Shown here: positions 5,116 through 60,900 of the stretch, piece after piece
Numbering within the stretch: the stretch's first letter is position 1
How the letters are laid out: every line of letters starts with the position of its first letter
Source: Mytilus galloprovincialis
Taxonomy: Eukaryota > Mollusca > Bivalvia > Mytilida > Mytilidae
Direction of reading: 5' to 3'
DNA length: 64,000 nucleotides
Assembly: GCF_965363235.1 (NCBI RefSeq)
Contig: NC_134838.1
Location: forward strand, 7,011,001 to 7,075,000
Position numbers and translations under genes: made by a program
The notes under the pieces: model-generated
What the model saw: the letters and a program-made list of their open reading frames with translations, nothing else
Database searches by the model: none
Told to the model about the DNA's origin: nothing

Positions 5116-5214
5116 CTATGAGGTTGGGAACTGCTTTTCTAATGTCCTGATGGATATAAATCTACCAGCAGCTATAACATATACCCAGGAAAGCAACACA
5201 ATCACAGCTAGTAA
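5116..5214 (-). CDS. End of a second small reading frame in the CRCP exon
   Basis: After an acceptor (attttcag; AG at 5216-5215) 32 codons are open and end with TAG at 5118-5116, 23 nt before the CRCP start codon. The peptide is a hydrophobic segment (LLAVIVLLSWVYVIAAG) followed by a short basic/polar tail (RFISIRTLEKQFPTS). It looks like a last membrane helix plus tail. The protein is not recognised and its earlier exons were not found. Either this is the last exon of a small membrane protein sharing a bicistronic transcript with CRCP, or the open frame is chance within the CRCP 5' leader. The first 50 nt are copied seven-fold in the adjacent array. Confidence 0.4.
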   Translation of the reverse strand, partial: LLAVIVLLSWVYVIAAGRFISIRTLEKQFPTS

Positions 5215-5708
5215 CTGAAAATAAAAAAAAAACAAAATAAATCTACCAGCAGCTTTAACATATACCCAGGCAAGCAACACAATCACAGCTAGTAACTGAA
5301 AATAAAAAAAACAAAATAAATTTACCAGCAGCTATAACATATACCCAGGCAAGCAACACAATCACAGCTAGTAACTGAAAATAAAAAAAACAAAATAAAT
5401 TTACCAGCAGCTATAACATATACCCAGGCAAGCAACACAATCACAGCTAGTAACTGAAAATAAAAAAAACAAAATAAATTTACCAGCAGCTATAACATAT
5501 ACCCAGGCAAGCAACACAATCACAGCTAGTAACTGAAAATAAAAAAAAACAAAATAAATCTACCAGCAGCTTTAACATATACCCAGGCAAGCAACACAAT
5601 CACAGCTAGTAACTGAAAATAAAAAAAATAAAATAAATCGACCAGCAGCTATAACATATACATACCTAGTCAAGCAACACAAACACAGCTAGTAACTTAA
5701 AATTTAAA
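5154..5708 (-). repeat. Tandem array, 7 x about 79 bp, with splice acceptor
   Basis: Copies begin at spacings of 81, 79, 79, 79, 80 and 79 bp (marker 'taccagcag' at 5163, 5244, 5323, 5402, 5481, 5561, with a diverged 'gaccagcag' near 5640). Read on the minus strand each copy is T-rich tract, tttcag, about 50 nt of the exon described at 5116-5214, then GTAAATT or GTAGATT. Each unit therefore resembles a mini-exon with its own acceptor and a possible donor. The copy nearest CRCP is the one continuous with the coding exon; the outermost copy is the most diverged. Confidence 0.9.
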
Positions 5709-5943
5709 AAAAAAACATGTTTATTTAGGAAAAAAGTTCTCATTTCAATGTATAGAAAATTAAAGTGCTAATCCTAAATTGTTTTTAGTTTTACTATCAT
5801 GATTATGGTCATTTTGAACTTCCCAACTGACTCTTTATCTTTAATTGTTTGTTTATCATAATTTATGACAGAAGTCAATCTAAAATATATTGTATTGTAA
5901 CTGGAGAGAATGAATTTCATTACAAAATTGCTCGTCTCCACCT

Positions 5944-6005
5944 AGACGCGAAACTGGGACCTCTGTGTTGCTAGGCAGTGTGTTAAATGACTGAGCTAAA
6001 GAAGT
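5944..6005 (-). repeat. tRNA-like SINE fragment
   Basis: On the minus strand the segment has an A-box-like 'tagctcagtca' and, about 40 nt later, a B-box-like 'agtttcgcgtc', the spacing of a tRNA-derived Pol III promoter. It does not fold into a complete tRNA by eye and lacks a clear body. It is best read as the head of an old tRNA-derived SINE. Confidence 0.4.
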
Positions 6006-6211
6006 ACTTTCTTAGCTCAACCGCTTACAGCTGACTTAGTATCTACCAAATGTTTTAATGGACGAAGAAATCCTGTCACAGTATATTAGAAAAGAAAATA
6101 TATTGGTATACCGGTACAATATAAAAAATAAGATAGAGTATAATTGTCAATGAGAAAACTCTCCACATGAGACCAAATAACAAATAAACCAGATGCTCTG
6201 CAGGGCACAGC

Positions 6212-7635: not shown

Positions 7636-7890
7636 AAAATTAACAACTATAGACCACCAGTACAGCTTTAAACACTGAGTTAAACAAATACCTACTAGTC
7701 AGCTATAAAAGGAGCGATATGACAGATATAAAACAATTAAATCAAAGTGAAAACTATTGGCCTGCAAAAAGTACAAAAGGCCTAAAAACTGTGCTTTTAT
7801 TGTTGAGCATAAGGTGACATTGTGACCATTCAACAAACAGCAAAAACTCTCACCTCAGAGCAAGTTTAAGGTGGGCACTAATGTATAAGT

Positions 7891-9127
7891 CAGGGTCGTA
7901 ACTACATTGAGGCAAATGACTCATGTTGGAAATTTAAAAAAACAAAACTGAAACAAAAGATTGTCTTCTTATCAAATTGTTTTCACGGAAAGTGTCTTGT
8001 AATCTGAAGCAAGTTCTCTTCACTCTCTGATGTCGCACCTGCATGTTTTTCGTGATCCATGTTTCTATTTTACTATTAGTTTTCAGATTTGATGGTCTAT
8101 TGTTTGTACTTCTGTGTCCTGGGTTTGTCTTTTGTTCATTTATTGTCCTACTTTATGACGATAGTATGAGTGTTGCTTTTCATTTGTAAACGTGTGGTTT
8201 TGCAATGTTGCATGTCCACCGATGCCCAGACATTGTGCTAAATATTTTGAGAATACATGATGCTACTGGACACAGAAAAAAATGGTCGTTTCTGCATTGA
8301 GAATTGAACTTGATTTCAAAGAATACAAAACTGTTTTTTTTGTGTAGATAAAACTAGATAGCTGACATGGTATAAATTAAAGTAAGACCACCAATTTTCC
8401 AGTATCAAATCATCTACTAAAAAAACATCAATGTATTACCATATGACCTTTTCATACATTGACGGATTAAACTTGCATTAAGTCGTGTTCAGACCCTTTA
8501 ACAGAAAATAAAGGAATGTGTAGTAAACTTGCACAGGACCTAATCTCACACATAGTCAATTCAGAGAAAAATACAAATGATCAATGGTCAAAGTTTTTAT
8601 TCCTGCTCTTCATCTTGATAGTTGCTGGGGGTCTTCAACAATAAAAGAATCATTAGTAACCTAAATCAAGGTCAAGATGGTCCTTAGTGTCGACTTAAGC
8701 AGAACCAGTACTTAAAGTATAATACTGCACTGTCACTATATTTAAATCTAGTCGTAAACAAAGCACAATACAAGACAAGAACAGACAGATCCGATTTTAA
8801 TTATAATGAGAATTACGATTTTTGCTTAATCCTACATATCGGTCTACCTTTAAAGCTGTCCACGTAAAACCTAATTCTTAAATTACACTAAATCTATGTT
8901 TTTGCCTTGAGACAAGAATATTGTTAAAAAAAAATAGCTAAAAATTGATTTCGTTTTAATGTAAGAAAAAGTCTGGAAAACCCTCAGAATGCACGATTTT
9001 GAGGCTTTTTTTCAGAGCTTCTGGTGGCCTTGAGTGGCCCCCAGACCCCTTGCCAAAATTTTTCCACATAGCTATGCTAGGTGAATATATTTTGCTTCAC
9101 TATTATAAGAGGCTAGTTACGGACCTG
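7891..9127. mobile_element. hAT-like non-autonomous element, 5-bp TSD
   Basis: It begins CAGGGTCGTAACTA and ends TAGTTACGGACCTG, an imperfect inverted repeat, and is flanked by TAAGT on both sides (7886-7890 and 9128-9132). No transposase frame is visible in the 1237 bp. The ends resemble those of the element at 11216-12773, which carries a hAT-like transposase fragment and also has a possible 5-bp duplication. Confidence 0.55.
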
Positions 9128-9135
9128 TAAGTTCA

Positions 9136-13405: not shown

Positions 13406-16400
13406 ATGAGTGCAGGTCCCCTTGTTGTTGAGATTATATGTACGTGTTGTTTAGCTGCATTTTTATTACATCGCTATGGTGACCTAAGGAAGAATCACGC
13501 ATTGACAACATTAGCAACATTTGTGGCATGGTACTTCTCCTTCCTGATAGTGTTTGTTTTACCTTTAGACGTTTCTTCAGTAAGTATCACTTTCACATAA
13601 GTTACAAATGAATTGTAAATAGATATAAATTTGTTTATTTACAAATGTATGCAATAATGCAATTATCTTCTCTTGTTGATGACAGATAATAGTTTTTTAA
13701 CCTATGTACAATGAATGTATGGAGCTTTAAAAGATACTAACTTTAAATGTTCAACACATTTTGTACCTTACTTGTACAGGTAAAAATAATATATATGTAC
13801 TATTCAGATTTTAATTTGACCAAATTTGCAAGATGGAAAACATAATTATGTATAATTATGTTTGGCAACATGAATAAAGACAAACTATGATTCTCAAGAA
13901 CTTCTCTGTTAAACCTTGAAGTTTGTTTTTGCTGTCTGTCCCAATTTTTTCAGAGCCAACAATTATTTTTCAAAATAGTGTATATGATGTATATATATTA
14001 AGTTTTTAAATCGTTAAGTTTATAGAGAGCCCTTGTAATAAACATGTAACTTTTCATTATTTCAGACATTTTACAGACAATGCCTTCAGGACAACCAGCC
14101 TCCTGCAGTGACAACTCCAATCCCATCTAATACCACTGATACCACAAATGCGACTACAACACCAGGACCAACACCTTCACAGAAATATAGTGCAGAATCT
14201 TCTCCATGTCAAAAACCTCTCAGTCATGTACCAGATAATGTTTTACCTGCACTTTGGCATGTTGTATATTGGTCGTCTCAATTCCTTACATGGTAAGATT
14301 CTGTAGATTCATTATTATTTGTTGGATACCAATTTTCATGGAACCAAGAAATTAAATGTTGTACGAATGACAAATTTTCTATATGTAGGCTTGTATGCAG
14401 ACTTTGGCAAAACCACAAAATAAAATATCCACTGAATAAGTAAGGTTTCCATAATCCACGAAAATTAGTACCCACGACAATAGATGAATCCACAGTAGAT
14501 AGATTATATTTTCTGTCATAAATATCTTTGTGAGATGTGTTAACATAAAAAAGAAGATGTTGTATGATTGCCAATGAGACAATTCTCCACAAGAGACCAA
14601 AATGACAGAAATTAACTATAGGTCACTGCACTGCCTTTAACAATAAGAAAAGCCCATACCGCCTAGTCAGCTATAGAAGGCCCCAAAATAACAATGTAAA
14701 ACAGTCTGGTTCAAGAAAAATCAGAACATGTATGCACAGTTTTAATTATTTGTTTTTAATCTTCAAAAGCACACAAGAAAACTAATCAAAGCAAAAATTA
14801 TCTGCACAACCATTTGTTTTACTCTTTTTTAAGATCCTTTAAGTATGTGCTTTCAGTAAAATGCTAACTTAACGACTACTTAAAAGAAGACACATTCACA
14901 TTTACTTTACTTTAAATGTTTATAAGGGTATTAAGAAGTACATGTACGATGTAGGATTAGCTTTACAAATAATTTAATCAATGTGCTTTTTTTCTATAGA
15001 TTTTGATGTCTTTTGGCTTTTTTATGCCGCCATCTTGCTTTTTCATTTTACATCTCTTTTTATTTGAAGATGATTTAGATTGAGTATATTACTTACCTTA
15101 GATTTGTTTTTATCGTAGGCTACTATTACCGCTGATGCAGTCCTATTCAACGGCTGGAGATTTCAGTGTAGCAGGAAAGATAAAGACAGCTTTGATAGAA
15201 AACGCCATATACTATGGAACCTACCTATTAATATTTGGAATTTGTTTGATTTATGTAGCAGCAAGACCTGACCTTCATATTGATGCGTAAGTTTAATAGA
15301 TTTACTTTCAAATAGAAAATAAGATGGTGCAATGTTAAGTATTATATTTGCTGATTTGGTATTTATTGCTTAGGATTAACATATATTCATTAGCCAAACT
15401 GACATGTATTGCTGAGGTGTCAATAATTTTTATGCAACAGCAGTTTTCATAGCTAGCAAGAAGGTTGATAGCTAAGGCAAGTAAAAAATTGTTTGGTCAG
15501 TATACAACTATTGCTGTTTATTGGATGTCTAGTAAATAATATATTGTAAAAATGTTTTTCAGGCGAGTAGTTAAAAAAAATTGTAAATACATCAATGCTT
15601 ACTATAAAACACGAGTCAAGTACAATTCTGTAGGATTTTCTTATTTAAGAGTTAATGCAATTTTACCTATTTTTGGTAGCTCTTGTTTGTGTATCTGTGA
15701 GAAAAACATCAATTTATTAATGCAGATTCTAAGATTCTAGTGCTTGAATAAAAGATCAAACATTTAAATTAAAAAATTGAAATAAAATAAAACGTAGTTG
15801 ATTTATATCACCTACCATTTTAAGCATGCTTGCTTAAAAAATTCAGGGGGTACTATGTTCAAGAAAGATTTAGCAGCAAGGTAATTGAAACAGCTTTAGA
15901 CTAATAAATTAGTTATCATTATAAAAGAAAAAAAAATATTCAGAGGGAATTTAAAAGTGATCTGACAGAATAACAGCTAGTAATTCCTGGGGTTTGTTCT
16001 TACTTGTATTTTAGAGAGAAGTTAAAAGTGATCAAACAAATGTCTAGATATATACCTTGGGTTTATTTTTACTTGTTTTTCAGAGAGAAGTTAAAAGTGA
16101 TTGGAATAACAGCCAGTAATACCTGGGGTTTGTTCTTACTTGTCCTGTTACTTGGTTATGGATTAGTAGAAGTCCCTCGCACTGTTTGGAATAGTAGTAA
16201 ACATGGACATATGTTGGGAAGGACACAATTTAAAATTTCTAAACTTAGCACAGAAAAAACAGAAGCAGAAGAAAATCTTGAAGATGTACTTGAGGTTAGT
16301 GAAATGCTTAACGAATTACTATTTCAAATATTATTTTGTAATTTTTTTGTATGAATTTTTTTATCATATCAAATATTGTTTATGAAAATATCTTTAAAAA

Positions 16401-19400: not shown

Positions 19401-22400
19401 ACAAAATCTTTGTACTTAGTAGTTGCTGTCGATGTTTTCATTCTGGTGGATCGTCTCACTACATTGTCGCTTGTTTCATCTTCTTCTTCTTCATCTTCTG
19501 TTTCTGATTCCTCTACTGGAGCATCTTGGACAAAACTACTTGCTTCGTCGTTTTCTTCATTTTGATCTTGAGTCTGTAATTAATCATCAGCATCGTGAGC
19601 GTCCTCTACTGAATCAGAATCCGGTTCGCTGGTGCAGACTTGATCGTCATCAACGTTACCAGGAACGTCAATTTCATCAGGAACAGTATCAATTTCATCG
19701 TCTGATGGTACGATGACATCTGTCTCCTTTTCACTTTCTGGTTCATTCCACATGACCACAAAAGATTCATCCTCACTGTCCGTGACAGTTTCAACGTCTG
19801 ATATGACCTTGGTTGGAGTCTCTTTTTGTGGTTGATGTGGAAATCGTCTCTACCACAATACTGTATTCAGTTGATTTTGTTGTGACAGTGTACTGTTATT
19901 TTTATATTTATATTGATTTCAGTGTCCAGAATCTTTGAGAAAGTCTGTTAAACCCAATGTAGATGATTACGAAGATTACAATGCTGCTCAAGATGTCATT
20001 AGTGAAAAAGCTCTTGTTAAACTACACAAACGTGTGATACAGGCCAGCCAGACACACAGACGTACACAGATTCAATGGAATAATTTAATGGAGAAGGCAT
20101 TCAATCTAGAGGATGAGGAAATGAATAGAAATAGTCCAGAGAGAAGGTTCAAAAGGTCATTTATGGTGGAAAAGGGGTGGTGGCGTAGTATTTATACACC
20201 AACTGTTGGTAAGATTGTTTAATGTATTGCTCTATCGAAACAAAATACTTCTTTTGATGAAAAATATTGTGTATTAAGATTTTGTTTAGAGTTTGAGTTC
20301 TCACAACTTTTTTTAGTGAATGTATAAGTCTAAGCTTGATTCCTTGTTTACATCTAAATTGTTTGTATATTGGTCATGTTGATATATATTCTTTGAGATT
20401 GTTTATTGGGTACATGATATTTGAGTTTTTTGTAAATTTAAATTATGTAATTTCAGAATGGTATTGGAAATGTTGGGCACGACCATGGACATTTCGAGTT
20501 GTCACTGTTATTTTAGCAATTTTCTCTTTCATGGTCGTCTGGTCAGAATGCTTATTCTTCATTAAATCTCCGGTCCTATCATTATTTGCTGTGTTCCTTA
20601 ATGTAGCCAAGCACAACTATGATTATGTATACATTGAGGTGAGTTTTCAATTTAGACTTGTTTACATTGAGGTGAGTTTTCAATTTAGACTTGTTTACAT
20701 TGAGGTGAGTATATGTACAATAATGTATAAAATGTAAAAGCATGATCAGTGTCAAAAGAGACATGTGTCTAGTATGAAACATGTTTGATTATATAACTCA
20801 ATAGAACAACCAGATTCAGATTGTTGGTTTATTTCTGTAGAGTCTACTTAAAAGAAGGGTAAAAGAGATCTAAGGAGTATATGGCAATGAGACAGCAACC
20901 AAACAATGTAATAAATCAAAAGACATCTAGAGGTCAATTTACACTTTCAACCAGAGACAGGTCTTTCCCGCCCTGAAAACAGTATACATTTAAAAAGTGA
21001 CTATCAAGACTTGCCATCGACACCAAATATTCCATATGAGAAAAATCTATTAAGATGACAAAATAAATCACCTTTCAATGAGGTTCTTGACTTTTAACAA
21101 GCATATGAAGATGCTGCAGGGTTGAACAGAGAACTTTTTTTTAATACATGTACGGAAAATAAGGAGATTTCTTTTAAACCTTAAGAAATTGAAAGATAGT
21201 TATTTTTAAGAAATAGATTTTGCATTCTAATTTTATCAATTTATCAATGATCATGGATAAAATCAATACATTTGTACCTCATTTCCAACTGCATTCATCA
21301 AAATAATGATAAATACATTTCTTTACAGCTGGCTTCAATTATTACAATAGCCTATTTGTGTTTCTGTGCCTACTACAGTGTGTTCCAGATCAAGATACTT
21401 AACTTTTACTACATTGCTCCCCACCACCAGACAGATGAATACAGTTTAGTATTCACTGGAATGTAAGTTTCTTGTCACAGATATATCCATGTCTATAAGA
21501 TTGAGATATTGTTGTTAGTTGGCAATTTTCAAATGTTTACTGCATATTCATGTGAAAAAGTGTATAGGCAAGCTGTATAAGCTAAATGAATTTTAAAGTA
21601 GTAAATACTTTAAAACCATAAAACTTTCAATAAAGGTCATGATTGTTTTTAAATATAAAAATTGAGTTCAAAGCATGTATAGTTCTTTTTAAATAATACA
21701 GGGGGCTGGGTCAGAAACAAACGACAGGATAAAACACAACAAAAGCAAATGAAAAATGGTATGTGTAGGAGGAATAACTAAACAATGTGATATATTGAAA
21801 AACCTGAAAGGTACATTTAATCATTTAATTTCAGCTCATATAGAGAGTACTTAATGGACTATGTTTTATACATGTATTTTTACAGGATGCTTTGTAGACT
21901 TACTCCACCACTTTGTTTGAACTTTCTTGGACTAATTCATCTGGATAGTCATATAACATATGATGAACGCTTGCAAGAAACCTCATACACTCAGGTAAAT
22001 ATTGTTATACATGTATAGTGATATCCTTTCAAATATTGTGCATGTATCAAAAGAAAGTGTAAAGATACATTTAATGGAGAGATTTCAAATCAAAAATGAA
22101 ATAAAGCAGGAGGATATCAATTATGAAAAGTAATATTTCATAAAATTGAGAATGGAAATGGGAAATATGTGAAAGGGACAACAACCCGACCAAATAACAG
22201 CTGAAGTCCACCAATGGGTCTTCAATGCTGCTCAGCTGGCCCCTAAATAAAAATGTGTACTAGTTCAGTGAAAATGGACGTCATATTAAACTCCAAATCA
22301 TATAAATGAACTAAAATTTAAAACAAACAAGACTAACAAAGACCAGAGGCTCCTGACTTGGGACAGGAACAAAAAATGTGATGAGGTTAAACATGTTTTG

Positions 22401-28441: not shown

Positions 28442-28492
28442 GGAACGGACATTGATTAGAGACTGATCCTTAATCTGAGTCTAACATAGATA

Positions 28493-39900: not shown

Positions 39901-42900
39901 CACTTATACACCACGCCCAGTTAGTACACATGATGTAAGAGAAAGTAGTCGTGTTCAGCAACTACAAAGGGAAGAACCAAAACCTAGAAGTCCACTCTTT
40001 GATGGTAAGGGGGATTTCAAGGCCTTCTGGACACAGTTTAGGTTATTGGGTAGTAGGTTCAATTGGTCCAGCGACAGACAAGTAGAGGAGCTCATTTTAA
40101 ATAGTCTTAGAGATGACGCCTTGGTATTTGTAAATGAGCTTCCTGTTGCCTTTCACAGAGACATACAACAAATACATGATGCCATGTCACAGAGATTTGG
40201 GGATCACATTTTACCAGAGACGTATATGACCAATTTGCAGTTTATCAAACAGGGTCAGAAAGAAAGCATACAAGAATATGCTTCTCGTGTTGAGTGGATG
40301 GTAGGTAAGGCATACCCTGATGTAAATGACTCAAATTTGCTGGACCGTTTTAAAACAGAACACTTTATTAAGGGTCTGCCAGACCAGTCACTATCATATG
40401 AAGTCCTCATACAGAAACCAGCAACATTGCAGGATGCAATAAATATAGTAACATGGCACGCAAGTTGTAGAAAAAATGTAGGCAAAAATTGTAATGTCAG
40501 ACAGGTAAATACTTATGAAAATTTCACAGCACAAGGGAAAACGGAAGACTTCGAGGTATGTAGGACAGAGAGTCCAAACCAATATGTAGCTAATGCAGAA
40601 TTTAAAACGGGCTTAGACGAGTTGATTGATTTTGAAGACATTAAGAAAGACCAATTAAATGCAAACAGCAGTTACCGAGTAAATACATGTTACTCATGCC
40701 ACCAGGAGGGACATTACAGCAGAGATTGTCCTTTCTCAAGAGGAAAAAGAGGGAAACCAGAAAATATGAATACTTTCGGAGGGAACCCGCAGTTTGGATT
40801 TATAAGTCAGGGTTATCAGAAATAGTTAGGACTATATAGCAGATAAGCCTACACTGGCCAAATATCAGAGTATTTTTGTGTAGATTCAGATTTTTTATAA
40901 TGTTGATATGGAACTTGTGTGATTTTTTTTGTTATTGATAAAATGTATAAGTGATTCATGTTTTATTGACAAGACTTGTAATATTAGTTTATACACTGAG
41001 TACATTAAGCACAAATATGTAGAGTATACAGTATTATAGATTTTTACACTTTTGAAATATATTGTGGTATTGAAATTGTTTTTGAGATTTTCAGAAAACA
41101 GGTTATTTTTTATCAGAATCTGGAATTTGATGGTCCTATTGAATTGTTGTTGTTGTTGCAGTAAAGATTGTTTAATACTATTTTGGTGGGAAGCTGCTTT
41201 CGGTGGGTGTATATTGGCAGTTGGGATACTTTAGGTGCCATTTTTGTTTTGGTGCGAGAATAAGTTAAGGCTAATGATTAGTCTAGATTGCAATATACAT
41301 TTAGGTTACACCATGGGTATGCTGAGCTATAGTCTACACCATTTTAGATATTTCTCGGGGAATACAGATGACCATTTTTTATTCTTTTGTACTAATTTTT
41401 ATACTTATGTTTGTATGGTGCATCAGTATCGAGGTTGTGTATATATTTATACACGGTGGTACCCTTGACTGTGGTATAGTACTAGATAGGACATCTGTAG
41501 GCTTATAGTTTATAGCCGGTTGTTTAGATGAAGTTTAGCTTCATAATGTTTTATAATTCCAGCGTCTGATAGAATTGAGAATTTTGGATTGAACTTTTAA
41601 TGGAGTAACTGTATATTAGTGCTGTAACTGGATGAAAAAAAAGAACTTTGTTTTTCATGATTCTTTATTGTTATATAAATATAAGAGAAGATATTTATAC
41701 ATGTTATACATTGAAGGAAATTTTAAATAAAACGTGTGTTTTGCCTTTAAAGTATTAACAGGCGCATTAGTTTGTTGACGCAGATATTGCTTTTTAAGAT
41801 AACATTAACAGGCGCAGTAGTTTGTTGATGTATGTTTAAGTTTAAAGTTAGCTTAAATATTTGTTTGTTTTTTATAAATTGGAGATGAGCAAAAATTGTT
41901 TTATTTTCATGATAGAGTATTAATGTGAAAAGAATTTGTAAATGTACTCTCAGAATTGACAAGACATATTTCGAGGACGAAATGTATTCTGGGGGAGAGG
42001 CAGTGTTGTAAATGTGTGTTTTGGTTATTTCCAAGTAAAGGAATATTGTTATTATTATATTAAGAGAGTTTATACAAGTTGTCAGAAGTTATTTCTAGTA
42101 TTTAGTATATTGAATGAGTAATTAACGTACGTTTTACTTTATGTTATTAGCTGTATCGATAACGTCGTATATGGCGCAACTTTGTCATGTATTGTTCAGA
42201 ACGTTACCGTTGGGTCAATATTTTAAGCGTGAACCCAAAAGTGTTCATTTATGAGTTCTTAACTGAAAGAATTGATATGTCTAGATTTGTTTATTTATAA
42301 GGTTGTATTATTATAAGCATTTTGAGTCGAGGACTCCTATATTTTATGTAAGCGTTTTCCGTTATGTTACGTTATGTTTTTCTTCCTGCTTAGAATATTT
42401 ACTTCCGGTAATTTGAAATAAATACGAGTGCAACGTCACGTTCGTCAGTCTTTGCTGTGTTTACTTTTGGCTTGCAGCAAGGCTCGTCCCGGGGGTTCCT
42501 AGAGGTAAGAAGCAGCGCATTAGCTGTATGCCTCGCATTTTATATTACAAGTAAGGGTTATAATTTAGAGGTAAGAAGCAGCGCAGATAGCTGTATGCCT
42601 TGCATATTTATTTATATTGTCAAGTTAATCCCGGTTGGTCCGTACGAAAATACAAGTAAAAGACTATTATTTTAGTAGCTCCGCCCGTATGTAAATTATA
42701 TATATTATTGTTGGAATATTGTACTTGTATGGAAATATATCGGCTGTTTAATAAAAGTATCATTTTTACTATTGACTAGTTATTCACGCTACCAATGATG
42801 AGAGAGAACAGACAACAGTTTTGACGTCCGTATTTATTTATTACCCCGTGCATTTACTAGTTTTATGAGATATTCGTATTTGCTGGCTTTATAACTATAT

Positions 42901-45900
42901 CAAAACATAGCAAGAAGCAGAAATTACGACACTATATCTGGATTTGCATCATGCTTAAAATGTGTCATTTTTATGGGCTTAAATGTTATTTCCAATATAC
43001 TCACAGGACCATTATGGTAGTTAAAACCGTGAGCTACTTTAGGATCATTAGAGTCATTGCTGTTATCATAATCTGCTACATATGACCAGTCACTGTAATA
43101 CATAAAACTTATCATAATCTGCTACATATGACCAGTCACTGTAATACATAAAACTTATCATAATCTGCTACATATGACCAGTCACTGTAATACATAAAAC
43201 TTATCATAATCTGCTACATATGACCAGTCACTGTAATACATAAAACTTATCATAATCTGCTACATATGACCAGTCACTGTAATACATAAAACCTTTATAT
43301 ATAACAAATCTGCTACATATGACCAGTCACTGTAATACATAAAACCTTTATATATAACAAATCTGCTACATATGACCAGTCACTGTAATACATAAAACCT
43401 TTATATATAACAAATCTGCTACATATGACCAGTCACTGTAATACATAAAACCTTTATATATAACAAATCTGCTACATATGACCAGTCACTGTAATACATA
43501 AAGCCTTTATATCATAATCTGCTACATATGACCAGTCACTGTAATACATAAAACCTTTATATATAACAAATCTGCTACATATGACCAGTCACTGTAATAC
43601 ATAAAACCTTTACATATAACAAATCTGCTACATATGACCAGTCACTGTAATACATAAAACCTTTATATATAACAAATCTGCTACATATGACCAGTCACTG
43701 TAATACATAAAACCTTTATATATAACAAATCTGCTACATATGACCAGTCACTGTAATACATAAAACCTTTATATATAACAAATCTGCTACATATGACCAG
43801 TCACTGTAATACATAAAACAAAGCCTTTATATATAACAAATCTCAAGTGAATGACATATAAAATATTTTGAGAAGTATCTAGAAATTATCTAAATTCAAC
43901 GTTATATATCATTCTGATGTTATCTAAGTTGATTCATCTAAACAAAATACCGAACTTTTAAAGAACTTTTTTTTTAATTCAAACCTTTTAATAAATCATT
44001 TAAAATGATCCAACTATCATGTAAACTGAAGGTTTTATTATTAAGTAAAATCTGGTATTTTCATTACCTTGGATCTAATGTTTTGACACCTAAAGGTCCA
44101 ACTAGAATATCCTGTGCTTGTTTCAGAGCAGTCCATGCATTTTCTGGAGTAAATAGTTCTGGTGCCTGAAACAGATCAATATATCAAAGTAACTCTAAAG
44201 GAGCAAGCTTGATATCTTACATTGATGTATAATTGTTTATACAAAATTGTCCATTTAAAAAACATAGAAGCTAATATTGTGATGTAATATACTCAATCCA
44301 TTCATTGAACTACGAGTACATGCAGTGATATACTCAATACTGGTACACATTTCTTTTTAGATGAACAACATCAATACATACTTTTCTACTATGACCTTTT
44401 AACATTATTAGTTGCAGACATGAACTGAGTCTTAAGTGCTTCTTGTTTTGAACAAATTCATTATTTCACAGAATTAGACAAGGAAGATTGTCAACATTTC
44501 TAAATGCTTTTATAACCATGATGTCATTGTCTTACTTTTCACAGTTAGTCTGAAATCAACATATCTTATTACTCAGTGTCTGTATTGTAGTAAATCTATT
44601 TTAAAAACTCACCACGGCCATAGCCACAAAGAAATTTGGTCTTAATTGAAAATCTGCAAAGAATGGTTTGGCAAAGTAAGAATCTTTATAGATCCCTCGT
44701 TTGTTTATCAGTTCTGGGTGAGGTTCCCTGTCAGGCATTGGTGTAGAGTTGATCCAAAAAAATTCTTCAAAATTAGATTGTATCTTTTCTTCCCATTCTT
44801 TGAATGTAACTTTTACATCAGCACCTGAAACAATATAATGTAACTTTGAAGTAGAAGTGAAACTGACATTTTTATTAAAAGCCATCTTATAATACATTCT
44901 TGCCCCACGTAGTAGCTGGGACATAATATCTTTTTTTCAAAAGACGTTTCACAATTACAGATCAAGGATGACATAATAAGCAAAGAAAGTAGAAACTAGT
45001 TTTTGGCCCCTCAATTTTGAAAAATATAAAGTACTATTAAATCTATTTGCATTATCTTAGCATTTTAAAGTATGCAACACTGAAAGAAATCAATTCTAAA
45101 AACATTTTTATTGATTTGAGTTTAATGTACAGTGGCAAATGTTACATGTATATTATGGTGAGAACATGTCTATGTGGTATGCATATAAATTTCTTATCTA
45201 GACTGACACATTGGAACTGTTTAAGAAGTCATAATGTTGTATGGTGACATCAGAAGAAGAAATAATTGCACTGATACTTAAAAATAAATATAAAATATTT
45301 CATTTACAATTAGATTTATACAATTTTGTCATACTATTTGTTGAGCATTTATTACACAAATTAAAACTAGTATAAAAAAATTCAAGGGAAGAAATACTTA
45401 CCATTTATTTTAGCATTTACAGAATCATAAGGATATTTGCTTTTTGCTTTCATTTCTTGAAGCCATCTAACTGCTGATTTACTGAGGCCAACAAGTTCAA
45501 CAGCTGACCCATTCCTGTAACATATCACATTCATTCATTGTCAAAAATCAGAATAATCCTCAATATACACATATATGGTACATATGTGTGGCTGGGGTTA
45601 AACCACAAACATTCAAATATAGAAGTTCCCAAAAGTCCTTAACCACACATTTATTTAAAAGCAAGTCATATTATAATCAGATATAAGATGTGAAACTATT
45701 ATCTTACTTGTGTTAATAATTGTTTACCACTACTGTTTGATATATGCCTGTTTGAATGGTTTTACACTGGTAATATAGGAAATATGTTCCACTGGAATTT
45801 ATATCACAGAAAACATGTTCCAGCACTGGAAAATTTGTCACGAAACTATTTTTTTACCAAATGTGAAATAAGTTCCAGAACAAAAATCACAGCTCCATGA

Positions 45901-48900
45901 ATTTTGTGCCAATATTTACAGTGACTTGACTGTTAGTGTTGCTATCCACCAATTGCAATTCATTCAAAATTTTGACCAAATTGCAATTTGTTTTATTAAA
46001 CCAAATTGTTCAACTGGTCAGAAATTTGAACCAACTGCTGTAGAAAACCACAGTCAAGTCGTGAAAGTGCAAGGTGATAAAATAAAACATACTTACAATC
46101 CTATAAGACTTTAACTCCACTTTATTGATGGTATTACTTAATCAGTCTATCAATCTGTATAGTTACATTATAGCCATTACCATACTAAAGGTGAACTGTT
46201 TTATTTTTAATTGCTATAAAAATGTCCAAACTAAGCTTTTATATAGTTTTTCTTTTGAAAAGTATTCTATATTCATAAGAATCACACATGATGTGAATAA
46301 AAACATTTCATATTCAGTAAAATATTTGTGAAATTGCAATATGTTTGTAGGAAGGGGAGATAATCTTTTTTGGTTTCAAAAAATCTTCATTCAAAAGAAT
46401 AGTATTTTAGGTTATCTCCCCAAGGAAACTTATCAATAGCATATTGTTATTTCACACGTATTTTACTGAATATATGATGTATTATTTTAAATGATATATG
46501 ATTCTTATAAATATAAAATCCTTTTCGAAAGAAAAACTATATAAAAGCTTAGTTTGGACATTTTTATAGCAATTCAAAATAAAACAGTTCACCTTTAGTA
46601 TGGTAATGGCTATAATATAACTATACAGATTGATAGACAAATTTAGTAATAACATCATTTAAGTGGAGTACAAGTCTTATAGGATTGTAAGTATATTTTA
46701 TTTTATCACCTTGCACTTTCACATTTTGACTGAACAATTTGTTCAATATTCTGACCAGTTGAACAATTTGATTTTATAAAACAAATTGCAATTTGGTCAA
46801 AATTTTGAATGAGTTGCAATTGGTGGATAGCAACACTAACAGTCAAGTCACTGTAAAAGTTTTTATAAGTGAAATATTCGTTCCTGTGATAAAAGTTTTG
46901 AATAAACAATTTTCATAGAAATCAATGAATAAGTTCCAATTAAAACTTTTTCACAGAATATAAGTATTTATATTATTATGATAGCTGAATGCTGTACTAT
47001 GCTTGCATGGGTACACATGATTTGCAATTGAAGGCATTACTGAAACCATAGGATGAAGATATGATATCATAATTTATATTCATGTTTTATGTGGTATTCC
47101 TCTATTTTTCTGGTTAACAGTCATGGTTGTTCTTTATATACATGTACTTAGGTCATGGCACAGTTTCAAAAGATTGTGACTTTTGTTTCTTTATGTCTTT
47201 TAATATAATTGATCAGTCACTTTGTCCCTTTCAAATTAACTTAGTACAAATGTTCATCATTAACTATACTGTTTCTTCTTATTAGTAATGGACTTCTGAT
47301 TTCATACATATCAATATAGTACATGTTTTTATAATGTACTTGAATGATAGCTTTAAACTCACTGAAGACAAATGCTCAGTTTATAAGATAACAGTGGAAT
47401 ACATTTTACAGACAAGTAACTTATTTCACCAGGTGAGGATCATATCTCACAAATCCAGAACTTATTTCACCAGGTAAGAAACATCTGTCACAAACCCAGA
47501 ACTTATTTCACCAGGTAGGAAACATATGTCACAAACCTAGAACTTATTTCACCAGGTAAGAAACATATGTCACAAACCCAGAACTTATTTCACCAAGTAA
47601 GAAACATATGTCACAAACCTAGAACTTATTTCACCAGATAAGGCACAAATTTCACCAACTTGGAACTTATTTCACCAGGTAAACTAAAGTGTCATTGTCA
47701 AAAATCACAATAATCCTCAATATACAAATATATGGTACAGATATGCAGATGGGACTAACATTTAAATATTGAAGTTCCCAAAAATTCTTACCCAGACCTA
47801 TAATTCATTGAGAGTCATATTAGAACTCATACCAGCGGCATGTTTGTTTATACCTTCATATGGTTCACTGATGGATACCCAAATCTCTTTTCTCTCATGA
47901 GAACTTTAAAAATCCCACATTCTTTAAAACCTATCTACTTCTATTTTCAAGACTAAAAGTAAAACCCATAAAATAGATATCAAAGCAAATCCACTTAACC
48001 TGTTTCTAGTTACATATGATCATGAACAAGAAAAGAAAAATTTCCTGCAGCCATTGTTTTCTCAAAATTTGACTTGTAGAATAGATCACTTTATACAATC
48101 CCTTGTTTCTATAGATAATCTAATCTTTGCTTAAGTCTTAAATTCTATTATAGGCAACAACAATATCAAAATGTTAGCTGGAGAATATTTAATCAAAAAA
48201 TTAATCTAAATTATCTTACAAACATGATAAAGCTACTATAGAACAGTATTTGACATAACATTTTGGTATTTTTGGTTATTAATGCTCTTTGACTTAAAGC
48301 ATCACGTAATTGTCTTTTTTAGGCAAAACATGTGTCTGAACTACCAAATTATATGTCTTGTATTTTTGATGAGTTTTTAAATTTTGTAGCTAATTAGGCA
48401 TATATAACCTTGGTGTTGCTGGTTTTCCTTTGTTGCCAGCTTTCTCAGAACTTCCCATTTTATCCATCCATGTTCCACAGTTCCACTCATTACCACCAAA
48501 CACAAAACCATTTTCCCAGTTCACACCAATCTCATTGTTAAAACCTATAAGTAAAACCAGGAATCAGTTGTATTTCTTCTGAATTTTGGAGTTTCTCTAT
48601 TTCAGTTTTACACATAATACTAACAAACATTGTCAATAAAAGTCTGGTAATTTCTGTATGTGCTTTTTAATTTAATATGTATAAATATTGTAATTGTTAA
48701 ATACAGAAAGACTCGACAATAATTAAACAGTGTAAGCATCACCTCTCTAAATGCATCAACTGACAAATGAAAACTGTAACAATAGGGAATAGGACATAAT
48801 TTTTAACTTACTTATCTTATATTACAGATCAGACAACTTTTCTTGTGTCTTGAGATCAAAACAGGAATGTAAACATGATTAAGTAAGAAGTTATAAAAAT

Positions 48901-51900
48901 TAATATTTCAAATATAAAGTTAAAAATTTACTTTGAAAGGGTGTGTTTATATAATAAAATAAAAAAGTAAAAGTAGCTTATTCATACCTGGATCAATCAT
49001 CTGACTATCTATCTCTGGACCAGCTTTAAACTCTCTGTACTTCAGACCTACCTGGATCAATCATCTGACTATCTATCTCTGGACCAGCTTTAAACTCTCT
49101 GTACTTCAGACCTACCTGGATCAATCATCTGACTATCTATCTCTGGACCAGCTTTAAACTCTCTGTACTTCAGACCTACCTGGATCAATCATCTGACTAT
49201 CTATCTCTGGACCAGCTTTAAACTCTCTGTACTTCAGACCTACCTGGATCATTCATCTGACTATCTATCTCTGGACCAGCTTTAAACTCTCTGTACTTCA
49301 GACTTACCTGGATCAATCATCTGACTATCTATCTATGGACCAGCTTTAAACTCTCTGTACTTCAGACCTACCTGGATCAATCATCTGACTATCTATCTCT
49401 GGACCAGCTTTAAACTCTCTGTACTTCAGACTTACCTGGATCAATCATCTGACTATCTATCTCTGGACCAGCTTTAAACTCTCTGTACTTCAGACCTACC
49501 TGGATCAATCATCTGACTATCTATCTCTGGACCAGCTTTAAACTCTCTGTACTTCAGACTTACCTGGATCAATCATCTGACTATCTATCTCTGGACCAGC
49601 TTTAAACTCTCTGAGCTTCAGACTTACCTGGATCAATCATCTGACTATCTATCTCTAGACCATATTTAAACTCTCTGTACTTCAGACCTACCTGGATCAA
49701 TCATCTGAATATCTATCTCTGGACCAGCTTTAAACTCTCTGTACTTCAGACCTACCTGGATCAATCATCTGACTATCTATCTTTGGACCAGCTTTAAACT
49801 CTCTGTGCTTCAGACCTACCTGGATCAATCATCTGAATATCTATCTCTGGACCAGCTTTAAACTCTCTGTACTTCAGACCTACCTGGATCAATCATCTGA
49901 CTATCTATCTCTGGACCAGCTTTAAACTCTCTGTACTTCAGACTTACCTGGATCAATCATCTGACTATCTATCTCTGGACCAGCTTTAAACTCTCTGTAC
50001 TTCAGACTTACCTGGATCAATCATCTGACTATCTATCTCTGGACCAGCTTTAAACTCTCTGTACTTCAGACTTACCTGGATCAATCATCTGACTATCTAT
50101 CTTTGGACCAGCTTTAAACTCTCTGTGCTTCAGACCTACCTGGATCAATCATCTGAATATCTATCTCTGGACCAGCTTTAAACTCTCTGTACTTCAGACT
50201 TACCTGGATCAATCATCTGACTATCTATCTCTGGACCAGCTTTAAACTCTCTGTACTTCAGACCTTCAGCGTGTCTTTGTAATGCTTCTTGCATCACATC
50301 ACATAATGGCTGATCCTGCAAAACAGTACAAATTTAGTGGAGTCACACTTAACAATAAACAGTTTAGATTTTACTGAAGTTTTATTATACTGTTCAATAG
50401 AAACATGAGATCTTATAACCAGAACCTTTAACTAGTTTAAACATATTTTATTGTTCAAAAGGACAAAAGTTTTGGACATAAATTTTTCAACTTAGTAATG
50501 TCTTCTACAATACATACATAAATATGAGTGGACATTAAAGGTATATCTGACATTAACAACAACAAAAATTTAACGTAAAAACTAAGTCCCCAACTCCCTG
50601 TTTAATTAATCTGTGACAGCCGCTACTGCAAATATAAATTTAGGCAAAAACAATTAACCAAGAAGCATGATTTCATAACTTACAAAACAGCCTGGTTCTT
50701 GAACTTCTGGACTATCTGAAGGATATAATCTGTGTACTATATCATGTAAAATACTTGTACCATCTGGGACAATTTGGCAGTAGTCTTGTATTGCCTGCAG
50801 CCACCACCAAACAGCATCACGACAGTTAAAACGAGCTCCTTTTCCCTCGTTCAATAAATTAGGTATAAGACCATGACGTAAACATCCACCATATGCTAGT
50901 ATTATAAACCTACAAAATAAATCATTTATTAGAACAAAAATGACTCAATAGTCACATAAACTTGAAGCTCTCAAGAGCCTATGTCGCTCACCTGACTATA
51001 CTTGGGTTTTTGAAATCATATAAAAAAAGATAACAAAGCACCAACACTTCATCAGCACCTCATAAGGAGCATTTATGACATTTAAAGTTTCATTCCAAGC
51101 AGTAGTTCTCTAAGAGAAGACATATGTATGCATTTTCCATAATGTCCAATGTTTAAACTATTTCCCCCAATGTTGGCCATCTTAGATGATGGTTCAGCTT
51201 CAAAGTATCAACACATGGCCAGCATGTCATAAGGACCATTCATGCTAGGTTTGGTTTCATTCCATTCAGTGGTTCTCTAAAAGAAGTCATTTGTATGCAT
51301 TTCCCATAGGGTCCTATGTTAAACTAATTCCCCCGCTGGCCGACATCTTGGATGATGGATCGGCGACAAAGTAACAACACTTGATCAGCATCTCAAAAGG
51401 ACCATTCACCCTAGGTTTGGTTTCATTCCATTCAGTGGTTCTCTAAAAGAAGACATTTGTATGTATCTCCCATAGGGTCTTATCTTAAACTAAGTCCTCT
51501 GCTGGCAGCCATCTTGGATGATGGATCGGATAAAAAGTAACAACACTTGGTCAGCACCTCATAAGAAACATTTATGCTATGTTTGGTTTCATTTCATTCA
51601 GTGGTTCTCTAAAAGCAGTCTGCATGGTTAGCCACTAGTCCGATGCCCCAGACTAGTAAAATTTCATTCTGACTAGTAAGTTTTTGCAAAACTTTGTTTG
51701 GACCAATAAAAAAAATGTCAGGATATTGGTCTTCGGACTAGTAGTTGAAAAAATTTTTGGTGCAGACTGTAAAAGAAGACATTTGTATGTATTTCCCATA
51801 TGGTCCTATGTAAAACTTAGTCCCCCGCTGGTGTCCATCTTGGATGATGGATTAACTTCAAAGTAATAAAACTTGGTCAGCACCTAATGTGGAACATTCA

Positions 51901-54900: not shown

Positions 54901-57900
54901 ACTATAAAAAGTCTGAGAAGTGAATTTAAATCAAATAAATCCAATGTATGCACAATGATACCAATAGATTTCAAACATTGCAAATAATTAATAATCCAAA
55001 ATGGAAATCTTGAAGGGTCATGAGAAGAAATGAACAACATATGCATCTGAAAATTTAAACTGTAAACACCTGAACAGCTATTTCTTGTTTCACTGGCAGC
55101 TGGACAATATTATGTATAAGGGTTCGAATTTTAAAGAAAGATTTAGCATGTAAAAGCAGTTTAAATTTTCAAACATATTAACTCGTAGTTAATTTAATCT
55201 TTTACTGATTTGGAAATTTAGGTAAAAATTAGATAATTCATATATCAGGGATTTAAAACAATGTAAACCAAAACTATTTTCTTCCCTATCAATTTTTGAA
55301 TAGAATAATCCTAGGTAAAGAAAAACTTCATGAAAAAAGCATGCTGTAAGGTTGGAACTGGTAAATAAAAAACTACAGGTAGAATCAAGGTAGATTTAAA
55401 TCTAACAATACCAACTGGTCAATTTAAATGTCCCTATTGTATTGTCAATTTAAAAAACAGGTTGCGCTATAGATAAAGTTTTACAGTAACCTCATAGTCA
55501 ACTCACTGTAATAAAAGCTTCAATTGATATGCAGTAAAGAGATATGGTAAATGCCTTTGCCAAATTAGACCTATAACAGTCAATTACTAACTGTTGCCAA
55601 TGGTGATAAGTTATTACAACCACCCACCAAAAGAAATACCAGTGATAGAAATGTATTCCTTCCCAAATTAACATACCTGGATTCTTGATATCTACCAGTT
55701 ACCAGTAATAATCCTCTCAATGAAATAAATGTATCCCTTCCCCAATTAACTTACCTGGCTTCCTGATATCTACCAGTTACCAGTAATAATCCTCTAAATG
55801 ATATAAATGTATCCCTTCCCCAATTAACTTACCTGGCTTCCTGATATCTACCAGTTACCAGTAATAATCCTCTCAATGAAATAAATGTATCCCTTCCTCA
55901 ATTAACTTACCTGGCTTCCTGATATCTACCAGTTACCAGTAATAATCCTCTCAATGAAATAAATGAATCCCTTCCCCAATTAACTTACCTGGCTTCCTGA
56001 TATCTACCAGTTACCAGTAATAATCCTCTCAATGAAATAAATGTACCCCTTCCCCAATTAACTTACCTGGCTTCCTGATATCTACCAGTTACCAGTAATA
56101 ATCCTCTCAATGAAATGAATGTGTCCCTTCCCCAATTAACTTACCTGGCTTCCTGATATCTACCAGTTACCAGTAATAATCCTCTCAATGAAATGAATGT
56201 GTCCCTTCCCCAATTAACTTACCTGGCTTCCTGATATCTAACAGTTACCAGTAATAATCCTCTCAATGAAATAAATGTATCCCTTCCCCAATTAACTTAC
56301 CTGGCTTCCTGATATCTACCAGTTACCAGTAATAATCCTCTCAATGAAATAAACGTATCCCTTCCCCAATTAACTTACCTGGCTTCCTGATATCTACCAG
56401 TTACCAGTAATAATCCTCTCAATGATATAAATGTATCCCTTCCCCAATTAACTTACCTGGCTTCCTGATATCTACCAGTTACCAGTAATAATCCTCTCAA
56501 TGAAATAAATGTGTCTCTTCCCCAATTAACTTACCTGGCTTCCTGATATCTACCAGTTACCAGTAATAATCCTCTCAATGAAATGAATGTATCCCTTCCC
56601 CAATTAACTTACCTGGCTTCCTGGTATCTACCAGTTACCAGTAATAATCCTCTCAATGAAATGAATGTATCCCTTCCCCAATTAACTAACCTGGCTTCCT
56701 GATATCTACCAGTTACCAGTAATAATCCTCTCAATGAAATAAATGTATCCCTTCCCCAATTAACTTACCTGGCTTCCTGGCATCTACCAGTTACCAGTAA
56801 TAATCCTCTCAATGAAATGAATGTATCCCTTCCCCAATTAACTAACCTGGCTTCCTGATATCTACCAGTTACCAGTAATAATCCTCTCAATGAAATAAAT
56901 GTATCCCTTCCCCAATTAACTTACCTGGCTTCCTGGCATCTACCAGTTACCAGTAATAATCCTCTCAATGAAATAAACGTATCCCTTCCCCAATTAACTT
57001 ACCTGGCTTCCTGATATCTACCAGTTACCAGTAATAATCCTCTCAATGAAAAAAATGTATCCCTTCCCCAATTAACTTACCTTGCTTCCTGATATCTACC
57101 AGTTACCAGTAATAATCCTCTCAATGAAATGAATGTATCCCTTCCCCAATTAACTTACCTGGCTTCCTGATATCTACCAGTTACCAGTAATAATCCTCTC
57201 AATGAAATAAACGTATCCCTTCCCCAATTAACATACCTGGCTTCCTGATATCTACCAGTTACCAGTAATAATCCTCTCAATGAAATAAATGTGTCTCTTC
57301 CCCAATTAACTAACCTGGCTTCCTGATATCTACCTATAGATGATAGTTCAGGCAACGATATTACAACAACTGTTCAGCCATTACATTTAATATACAAGTA
57401 CGTATTTCCGCCCAAGGCGACGTCACTGACAATACGACGTCGACAATAGACATGTACAATAGTTGGAACGTTATGTTCCCGCGATAATCTCAACACTACC
57501 AGTTACCAGTAATAATCCTCTCAATGAAATAAATGTATCCCTTCCCCAATTAACTTACCTGGCTTCCTGATATCTACCAGTTACCAGTAATAATCCTCTC
57601 AATGAAATGAATGTATCCCTTCCCCAATTAACTTACCTGGCTTCCTGATATCTACCAGTTACCAGTAATAATCCTCTCAATGAAATGAATGTATCCCTTC
57701 CCCAATTAACTTACCTGGATTCCTGATATCTACCAGTTACCAGTAATAATCCTCTCAATGAAATAAATGTATCCCTTCCCCAATTAACTTACCTGGCTTC
57801 CTGATATCTACCAGTTACCAGTAATAATCCTCTCAATGAAATAAATGTATCCCTCCCCCAAATAACTTACCTGGCTTCCTGATATCTACCAGTTACCAGT

Positions 57901-60900
57901 AATAATCCTCTCAATGAAATGAATGTATCCCTTCCCCAATTAACTTACCTGGCTTCCTGATATCTACCAGTTACCAGTAATAATCCTCTCAATGAAATGA
58001 ATGTATCCCTTCCCCAATTAACTTACCTGGATTCCTGATATCTACCAGTTACCAGTAATAATCCTCTCAATGAAATAAATGTATCCCTCCCCCAAATAAC
58101 TTACCTGGCTTCCTGATATCTACCAGTTACCAGTAATAATCCTCTCAATGAAATAAATGTATCCCTTCCCCCAATTAACTTACCTGGCTTCCTGATATCT
58201 ACCAGTTACCATTTATAATCCTCTCAATGATATAAATGTATCCCTTCCCCAATTAACTTACCTGGCTTCCTGATATCTACCAGTTACCAGTAATAATCCT
58301 CTCAATGATATAAATGTATCCCTTCCCCAATTAACTTACCTGGCTTCCTGATATCTACCAGTTACCAGTAATAATCCTCTCAATGATATAAATGTATCCC
58401 TTCCCCAATTAACTTACCTGGCTTCCTGATATCTACCAGTTACCAGTAATAATCCTCTCAATGAAATAAATGTATCCCTTCCCCAATTAACTTACCTGGC
58501 TTCCTGATATCTACCAGTTACCAGTAATAATCCTCTCAATGAAATAAATGTATCCCTTCCCCAATTAACTTACCTGGCTTCCTGATATCTACCAGTTACC
58601 AGTAATAATCCTCTCAATGAAATAAATGTATCCCTTCCCCAATTAACTTACCTGGCTTCCTGATATCTACCAGTTACCAGTAATAATCCTCTCAATGAAA
58701 TAAATGTATCCCTTCTCCAATTAACTTACCTGGCTTCCTGATATCTACCAGTTACCAGTAATAATCCTCTCAATGAAATGAATGTGTCCCTTCCCCAATT
58801 AACTTACCTGGCTTCCTGATATCTACCAGTTACCAGTAATAATCCTCTCAATGAAATAAATGTATCCCTTCCCCAATTAACTTACCTGGCTTCCTGATAT
58901 CTACCAGTTACCAGTAATAATCCTCTCAATGAAATGAATGTATCCCTTCCCCAATTAACTTACCTGGCTTCCTGATATCTACCAGTTACCAGTAATAATC
59001 CTCTCAATGAAATAAATGTATCCCTTCCCCAATTTCTCATATATCCAGCACCAAAGTGAGAAAAGCCTAAAACAGAAAAAGTCTTCCGTAGAGAATACAA
59101 AGCTTTTATGTTTGTCAAGATACTACAAGATAAGCACAAGTTACTTATAGATTACCTACAGCTTAGTATACAAGAGAGTTACTTGGCTACAATCTCATTT
59201 AAGGGGGATAGATTGTTCTCAAGTCTGAAGATCTAAGATAATCTGTTTACTCATATTTTCCTAGAGATTTTCCTAGGCTAGGTCAATGATTTTGGCTTAT
59301 GACATCATAGTGATCTCACTCTACATGACTATGAGAAAAAAAATTCGCAGTGGAGAAGCATAATATGGAAAATTACCACAAAAAATAATTAACTCAGAAT
59401 TTGAAAAAAAGGGAATAAATGTTTTTATCTATGGGTGTGTATTGTGGTAGTTAAATTTTATCATCAATAGGTACTTAAGACTTTAAAAATATGTCATGAT
59501 AATCAATAAAATAAAATACAAACATGACAGTCACACATACCAGCTGCTAACGATAATGTGGCCTCTTTGTCATCTTCATCTACAGGTGGTTTAGGTAGTG
59601 ATAAGTTAGGGGACAAGGGAGGCAACTTAGATGTCTTTACAAAGCCACAAAATTGAACAGCTCCCATTGCCAATATCTTAAGAAAAGTGGATCCATCTTT
59701 AATAAAACTAAAATAAAGCAAGTAATAATTATCAATAAAGAAAAGTATTTTTGTCACCATTTGAAGTACATGTTCACTTATTTTCAATTTATACCACTAC
59801 CCTCTTAGCCATGCTGTGTAAAAAGCATAGCAGAAGTTATTAAAAATACATATCTCTTAATCAAAGAAAAGTATACTGCTAGAAAACCATAAATTATGAA
59901 TATTTTATGCTATCAGGTATAATTATTCACAAACTTATAAGGAAATATTGGTGAATAGACAAATTTGACTAAACATGACAACATTTTTTATTTGAGGGAC
60001 TTTTATTATAAAAAATCTTTATTTTAAAATAAGATCATCATATTTGAAGAATCTGCACTGTCAATTTGGAATCCTATGATCTTATGATCTATATAAAAGC
60101 AAAGGCACTTACTCCGACATCTGTTCTACAACCCTGCTACGAAGCACAATGAAGGATCCCATTATAATAGTGTCAAAGTAACATGGAACCAGAGACCTTG
60201 GCACATTGTACAGATGTTTAAATACATCATCAAACCACTGTCCTAGCTGTAAATAAAAAAAAGTGAATCTTTCAAGTCAATTTCTAATAAAAACTATAAA
60301 GTAGTCAACTTTACTTAATTGCTACATTTTCTCTTATTTAAATTAATTTCTTTTTCATTTAATGTTAGAAAATTCAGTTAAGATTTGCATTTTCACAGAT
60401 AAATCATTAGACATAAAAAGTACAAATTTGTACAACTTTATCCCCTCAACTACAACAGTAATCCCCTATTGATAGTAAATACAACAAGTGAAACTATGAG
60501 CTACTGCTCACTGATAATTTCCCAGCTGCAAGCGGATAATTTGAATAGTGTAAAATGATACAAGTGTTCGGTAAACAGGAAGTTGTTTGAGTGATGAATC
60601 TGAAAATGCATTAAACGGTATAACTGACTCCTATAAACCCTGAAACCAAATTTCAGAAATCCTTGTTATGTAGTTCCTAAAAAAGATGCAGCAAAAAATA
60701 TTCATTGGACAGAAGGACAGACTGACAGACTGATGGACGGACAGACAAAGTTAAAACAGTATACCCTCTCCTTTTTAAAGTGGGGGTATAAAAGTTAAAA
60801 CAGTATACCCCCTCTTTTTCAAAGTGGCGGTATAAAAATCTGTGTAAACCCTTGAATTTTAAGGTTTGAACATTTAACCAATGACATTTCATTATGAGGA

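Follow-up and report, generated by a model that had tools for sequence, protein, structure and literature searches.

We found that exon-intron boundaries of neighbouring mussel genes lie inside tandem arrays whose units join the end of an exon to the adjoining part of the intron. The window, that is, the whole stretch of DNA that was analysed, covers 64 kb (C1:7011001-7075000) of the 1.385-Gb Mytilus assembly and holds AGL (minus strand, 15 exons), LMBRD2 (plus strand, 12 exons) and CRCP (minus strand, one coding exon). These arrays are probably 'mirage' minisatellites, local tandem duplications that are tolerated since one intact junction remains.

Exon boundaries inside minisatellites

Exons were placed by splice signals and then chained, which gave open frames of 786 aa over the 15 exons of AGL and of 713 aa over the 12 exons of LMBRD2. 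The AGL chain aligns with the solved glycogen debranching enzyme 8zeq_A without gaps at the three junctions that bear arrays. LMBRD2 is identical at 702 of its 713 residues (98%) to a protein named as that of Mytilus californianus, and it matches the Pfam family PF04791 (1.1e-196). An earlier note on this DNA had described six arrays that span exon-intron boundaries, and all six were found by Tandem Repeats Finder (TRF) where the note had placed them. That they span boundaries is confirmed by exon chaining and homology for five of the six (AGL exons f, h and m; LMBRD2 exons 4 and 7), while the sixth, near CRCP, is a reading of the sequence only. The features at the five confirmed boundaries are listed below (arrays by TRF, with inspection of the units in AGL and comparison of the copies at LMBRD2 exon 4; retained exon copies by chaining and homology; positions counted from the first base of the window).

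55649..59034, minus strand: AGL exon f donor array, 78-bp unit, 41 donors
58964..59066, minus strand: AGL exon f, retained copy, 103 nt, ending in ..GAAGCCAG followed by gtaagtt
48985..50265, minus strand: AGL exon h donor array, 64-bp unit, 20 donors
50204..50315, minus strand: AGL exon h, retained copy, 112 nt
43070..43843, minus strand: AGL exon m acceptor array, 15 acceptors
43005..43092, minus strand: AGL exon m, retained copy, 88 nt
15939..16143, plus strand: LMBRD2 exon 4 acceptor array, about 69 bp x 3.0, 75% matches, old
16084..16294, plus strand: LMBRD2 exon 4, retained copy
20626..20710, plus strand: LMBRD2 exon 7 donor array, 33 bp x 2.6 (TRF), three donors
20457..20638, plus strand: LMBRD2 exon 7, retained copy

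The units differ in how much exon and intron they hold. The AGL f unit consists of 71 nt of exon end and 7 nt of intron start, the AGL h unit of about 59 nt and 5 nt, and the LMBRD2 exon 7 unit of 11 nt of exon and 22 nt of intron. At AGL exon m, 14 decoy acceptors accompany the true one, and the unit lengths of 53, 50 and 46 bp represent three junction types, so that this acceptor has probably been cut or duplicated more than once, each time between different end points. Within the AGL f array, one copy is interrupted by a unique insertion of about 166 bp (~57330-57500, minus strand), perhaps a small mobile element.

The sixth array lies upstream of the ATG of CRCP, whose coding part matches RNA_pol_Rpb4 (1.5e-28, Pfam).

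5156..5715, minus strand: array upstream of the CRCP ATG, 79 bp x 7.0 (TRF), putative boundary
4658..5092, minus strand: CRCP coding sequence, 144 aa, one exon (sequence and Pfam)

We infer that this array also straddles an exon boundary. Its unit holds a strong acceptor (tttattttcag followed by TTACTAG, score 12.0), and its far-edge copy differs from the sixth copy by 11 mismatches, against 5-7 in the other copies. The exon side of the array, at 5100-5215 on the minus strand, reads LLAVIVLLSWVYVIAAGRFISIRTLEKQFPTS and then a stop, a membrane-type peptide a short way before the start of CRCP. We take this peptide to resemble vertebrate SMIM27, which Pfam did not confirm, as a near-identical form of it gave no match there; a first exon for the putative small protein was looked for and not found. 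An Rfam scan of the window at gathering scores gave no match.

Predicted effect of copy choice on the protein

When the exon-proximal copy is used, the reading frame is intact at all five confirmed boundaries, in line with the earlier note, which had held that the outermost copy leaves the protein intact. Use of any AGL decoy would instead bring in a premature stop (40 of 40 in f, 19 of 19 in h and 14 of 14 in m; 73 of 73). In LMBRD2, the second or third copy at exon 7 would lengthen the protein in frame by 11 or 22 aa, and one exon 4 decoy is in frame and one out of frame. No inserted peptide was found at the exon 4 and 7 junctions in the LMBRD2 proteins of three relatives. As a statement about reading frames, the protein is apparently unchanged by the arrays; the same frames support the proposal that duplication can be silent where a spare junction remains.

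Spare splice sites might instead serve a selected function, buffering splicing or tuning it through alternative use, and the in-frame variants possible in LMBRD2 would suit such a role. So would the donor GT, unchanged in the 38 (f) and 19 (h) full AGL copies examined. Since only 2.1 changes were expected, this constancy says little on selection on the decoys. Moreover, the AGL decoys encode stops, the LMBRD2 proteins of the three relatives lack an inserted peptide at the array junctions, and copy number and unit vary from site to site. We therefore regard a selected function as highly improbable.

Copies, breakpoints and proposed growth of the arrays

Copies within the arrays differ by point changes, in mixed order. 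Units of double length, as the loss of a splice site would give, were not seen in the AGL f, h and m arrays. As regards the escape of array-edge copies from homogenisation, a trait of mirages, the last partial copy of AGL f looks more diverged by eye, its score including unique intron, and the rank correlations of divergence along the f and h arrays are weak, with signs that disagree.

During assembly, such arrays could in principle be created by the collapse or expansion of repeats or by the joining of haplotypes, and the amphioxus BflGb6 mirage did appear aberrantly assembled in a draft genome (PMC3087553). For the mussel arrays we consider an artefact very unlikely, given the point differences in mixed order, the unique insertion inside one AGL f copy, and two arrays (75% and 77% matches) that are too diverged for a recent artefact.

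The distance from breakpoint to splice site varies, with 5-31 nt on the intron side and 11-71 nt on the exon side, and units differ from site to site. Reverse splicing and mobile elements both fail to explain the arrays, because the breakpoints are off the splice sites and every unit is local; on these grounds we rejected an RNA-mediated or mobile-intron origin. Bases read off at the breakpoints show that, at one of those in AGL m, the exon and the flanking intron have the 5-bp AGATT in common, and that AGL h has at most one shared base, which makes end joining or short-microhomology duplication plausible.

Based on these findings, we propose the following course for the mirage-type arrays. 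A short local tandem duplication would happen to straddle an exon-intron border, as the unit anatomy indicates. With one complete junction staying beside the unique part of the exon, the allele would be nearly silent, as the frames show, provided that the spliceosome uses this junction. The array may then grow by slippage or unequal exchange, as the near-identical, mixed copies suggest, and selection would hold the exon-proximal copy only. Mis-spliced AGL forms, which would carry the early stops of the decoys, could be removed by nonsense-mediated decay.

Chance expectation in the window and its flanks

With the unit of each array placed at random in the window, 0.95 junction-spanning arrays were expected and 6 of 20 observed (P=1.9e-4). 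The excess persists with confirmed junctions only (5 of 20 vs 0.92 expected, P=1.5e-3) and under a null restricted to gene bodies (5 of 12 vs 0.97, P=1.3e-3). All these window tests are post hoc, since the pattern itself was picked from this window. A test for decayed copies at 52 boundaries gave p<0.05 at six, the five that bear arrays plus the acceptor of AGL h, whose signal (p=0.01) could arise by chance.

Boundary arrays tend to be the longer ones in the window (Mann-Whitney p=0.016), but the claim that they are the longest fails as a rule: window arrays of 1078 and 619 bp, derived from transposable elements by their look, outrank some of them, and the flanking 200 kb, which was also scanned (the joined 264 kb include 300 N), holds arrays of 1405, 1641 and 1916 bp at which no exon was evident in a crude test. 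A flank sample comprised 13 arrays of at least 2.8 copies and periods of 28-120 bp. In four of these a donor or acceptor scored higher than the cut, the open frames being just 22-37 residues long, and the crude test on the unannotated flank, which could miss boundary arrays, placed none of the 13 clearly at an exon. Further along the contig (G000:C1:7162393-7193611), 15-bp arrays recur in pairs at a period of ~2348 bp, interrupted by one longer gap, which points to a long tandem array of a 2.35-kb unit.

The 14 non-boundary arrays of the window are not enriched in splice signals (Fisher p=0.61). Accordingly, we rejected the idea that splice consensus alone drives duplication, although the arrays at 39277-39388 and 47418-47682 carry strong signals. 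The former carries a strong acceptor on the AGL strand (score 11.8) and lies inside a region of an AGL intron (~38160-42990) where, by eye, two near-identical direct stretches of several hundred bases flank a retroelement-like stretch. The latter, also intronic in AGL, has a strong donor word, CACCAGGTAAGA, in antisense orientation (donor score 9.1). A long imperfect inverted repeat, seen by eye, occupies ~45950-46900 of an AGL intron.

Boundary arrays elsewhere in the assembly

The whole assembly was searched for three occurrences of CAGGTAAG spaced 30-60 bp apart, with the reversed motif as the single control. The tandem donor word gave 817 matches (370 + 447) and the reversed motif 285 (192 + 93), both being counts of overlapping matches, many from one array. 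On contig C1, which the first 100 places cover in order, there are 16 CAGGTAAG loci in 15 unit families, against two unit families of the reversed motif, of which one is dispersed over three sites. Assuming that both words are equally common, 15 vs 2 families gives P=0.0012; 16 vs 5 loci gives P=0.013, two places 0.9 kb apart having been split for the control only.

For the exon check we sampled the 5' flanks of donor-motif arrays only, at 15 of the 16 C1 loci and at one C2 locus; the sixteenth C1 locus has the same unit as a sampled one. Six of the 16 sampled arrays adjoin homology-confirmed coding exons, the match stopping 1-12 residues short of the first donor.

L021: voltage-gated calcium channel (Ca_chan_IQ, 1.4e-8)
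L028: HSP70 (4e-4, just under the Pfam cut-off; 2e-5 in a further search)
L029: M1 peptidase (1.3e-10)
L032: otoferlin (6e-13)
L033: SZT2 (6e-6)
L034: cytosolic carboxypeptidase 5 (1e-27)

Three further loci, L023, L031 and L035, are exon-like by frame and acceptor. The exon at L024 may belong to an EDEM-type mannosidase, and Pfam, PDB and NCBIfam gave no match for it; the NCBIfam search of the L023 and L034 exons likewise gave none. At L030 (G000:C1:118398198-118398457), the 36-bp CAGGTAAG array is open in frame over the unit tested.

A mechanical rule called 9 of the 16 arrays exon-like, compared with 83 of 946 AGGT background sites in the flanks (P=2e-6). This rule is a rough guide: among the six confirmed arrays it finds L021, L032 and L034 but not L028, L029 or L033, four of its other calls (L026, L027, L030 and L036) are ones that we do not count, and for L023, L024 and L027 it takes another AGGT beside the donor of the array. 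The first decoy unit contains a stop codon at 7 of 9 exons, which is not clearly above chance.

A gene-first sample was drawn from 93 exon matches to Pfam Myosin_head, of which the first 23 in table order were taken, giving 46 match edges. One of the 46 has an array within 25 bp, although the edge of a match need not coincide with the end of an exon and the sample includes close paralogs. By eye, this locus (L049) has an old three-copy array across the donor after ..PTIDLLEK. Boundary arrays may accordingly occur at about 2% of edges (1/46, a small sample). Since 1/46 is below the 5/52 boundaries of the window, the window is probably richer than the genome average.

Boundary arrays are thus not a local feature: several further exons in the same assembly are affected. 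In keeping with the genome-wide property that the earlier note had considered, the pattern extends beyond its three genes, to the exons adjoining motif arrays and to the one myosin edge. These data also bear on the idea that ordinary minisatellites occur at uniform density and that the window happens to hold six at boundaries. The post hoc choice of the pattern, the 13 comparable flank arrays with no clear exon by the crude test and the single myosin edge out of 46 all speak for it. Against it stand the six homology-confirmed cases in 16 arrays drawn by motif alone (15 from C1, one from C2) and the reversed-motif control. Already weakened by these results, a chance cluster appears unlikely to us.

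Tolerance or a focus on junctions

The excess over uniform placement leaves room for a further reading, in which duplication itself is commoner at transcribed splice junctions and tolerance acts on top. Candidate causes are R-loops, GC or nucleosome contrast at exon ends, and the splice consensus acting as microhomology. Consistent with such a focus, 6 of 20 window arrays span a junction where 0.95 were expected, CAGGTAAG forms 15 unit families on C1 against 2 for the reversed motif, several junction types occur at the one acceptor of AGL m, and the AGATT match stands at one of its breakpoints. On the other side, the 14 window arrays off exons lack an excess of splice signals, breakpoints lie off the splice site at varied distances, 47 of 52 boundaries have no clear copies, and the genome-wide contrast uses one control motif. 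Longer persistence of arrays that are anchored by a selected exon copy could, furthermore, give the same excess. The excess could therefore reflect either mutation or longer survival; it suggests more than uniform tolerance, on the basis of one control motif. Whether Mytilus duplication is truly focused on junctions, with a measurable share of exon ends (1/46; 5/52) becoming splice-site arrays, we consider doubtful, though clearly less so than a chance cluster. A junction-focused mechanism, which the earlier note had offered, hence gains from the excess and loses from the 14 other arrays and the varied breakpoints.

Several points weigh against our preferred reading of tolerated local duplications and against the evidence for its wider occurrence. 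Tolerance at an even rate predicts about one boundary array in the window, not five or six, which is a poor fit; 5 of the 52 boundaries carry copies, and the other 47 are without clear decayed copies. We infer, moreover, from the reading frames that splicing would use the exon-proximal site. The contrast between the two words depends on their frequencies: were CAGGTAAG two or three times commoner than its control, 15 vs 2 families would give P=0.044 or 0.16. As singles, the two are in fact about equally common in the 264 kb with arrays masked (4 for CAGGTAAG and 5 for the reversed motif; 7-mers 28 for AGGTAAG and 39 for GAATGGA); genome-wide, beside ATG or GTA, GGTAAG occurs 6890 times and GAATGG 6626 times. 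Five of the 16 sampled arrays (L022, L025, L026, L027 and L036) have no convincing exon, and L030, perhaps a coding repeat with donor words in it, was not counted as a boundary array. The share of sampled arrays at exons is by itself no proof of a preference, the flanks of control arrays having been outside the sample.

Considering all the above results, the observation made in the earlier note was essentially right and is confirmed in part, and its interpretation is partly supported. Its reference to intron gain by AGGT tandem duplication does not fit: existing junctions were copied, and no extra intron is needed for the full protein.

Comparison with known systems

Tandem duplications with splice signals have been described for potato RdRp and for ATP2A1, the potato case crossing an intron-exon boundary with gain of an intron (PMC4974935, PMC3443670). 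In that type an intron is gained, whereas the mussel copies extend an existing one. Human minisatellites with units averaging about 30 bp sit at exon-intron boundaries in segmental duplications (PMC2812944); these are recent gene duplicates with RNA-supported novel introns, while the mussel arrays occur in single conserved genes. The satellite-like arrays borne by Helentrons, short, tandem and dispersed in bivalve genomes (PMC7492417), consist of mobile-element sequence, in contrast to the mussel units of local exon end and intron. Introners and mobile introns were also set aside, as the units in the window and at the confirmed sampled sites are local exon-intron sequence.

The closest system is found in amphioxus, where 'mirage' minisatellites are tandem copies of 5' or 3' exon boundaries with AG/GT signals that leave transcripts or protein unaffected (PMC3087553, PMC3902484). 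They were described in Adh3 and in the globins BflGb6 and BflGb9, to which PMC3902484 added TnC and PGBD5. The phenomenon that the earlier note thought worth naming as new thus already bears a name. A literature search, judged by titles, found no mirage case in molluscs, and our claim is limited to that search; passages of a Mytilus galloprovincialis genome paper (PMC11183127) did not mention introns.

Three features of mirages were firmly tested and found in the mussel. The unit straddles an existing exon-intron boundary in five of the six window arrays, and would do so in the sixth. Both exon ends are affected, with three donor and two acceptor arrays confirmed and one putative acceptor array. 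The copies carry AG/GT signals (41 donors in AGL f, 20 donors in h and 15 acceptors in m). We therefore file the mussel arrays as mirages in another phylum. They differ in scale and in the kind of evidence: the amphioxus cases come from a cephalochordate, with 3-6 units of 150-160 bp in BflGb6, and reverse transcription PCR, length polymorphism and somatic instability have been reported for them, whereas the mussel cases come from a mollusc, reach 41 copies and 3.4 kb, and are known from the sequence of one assembly.

Published mirages were met only in lancelets, and the mussel cases, at several conserved genes, extend the kind to a mollusc and suggest a repeated route for reshaping exon ends. 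They offer test cases for how the spliceosome chooses among dozens of identical sites and for whether junction duplication feeds intron gain. They are also a warning to annotators and users of short reads that bivalve exon ends may sit inside minisatellites. If duplication were truly focused on junctions, bivalve and lancelet would have converged on a genome-wide mirage engine, a source of raw material from which introns would slide or be gained.

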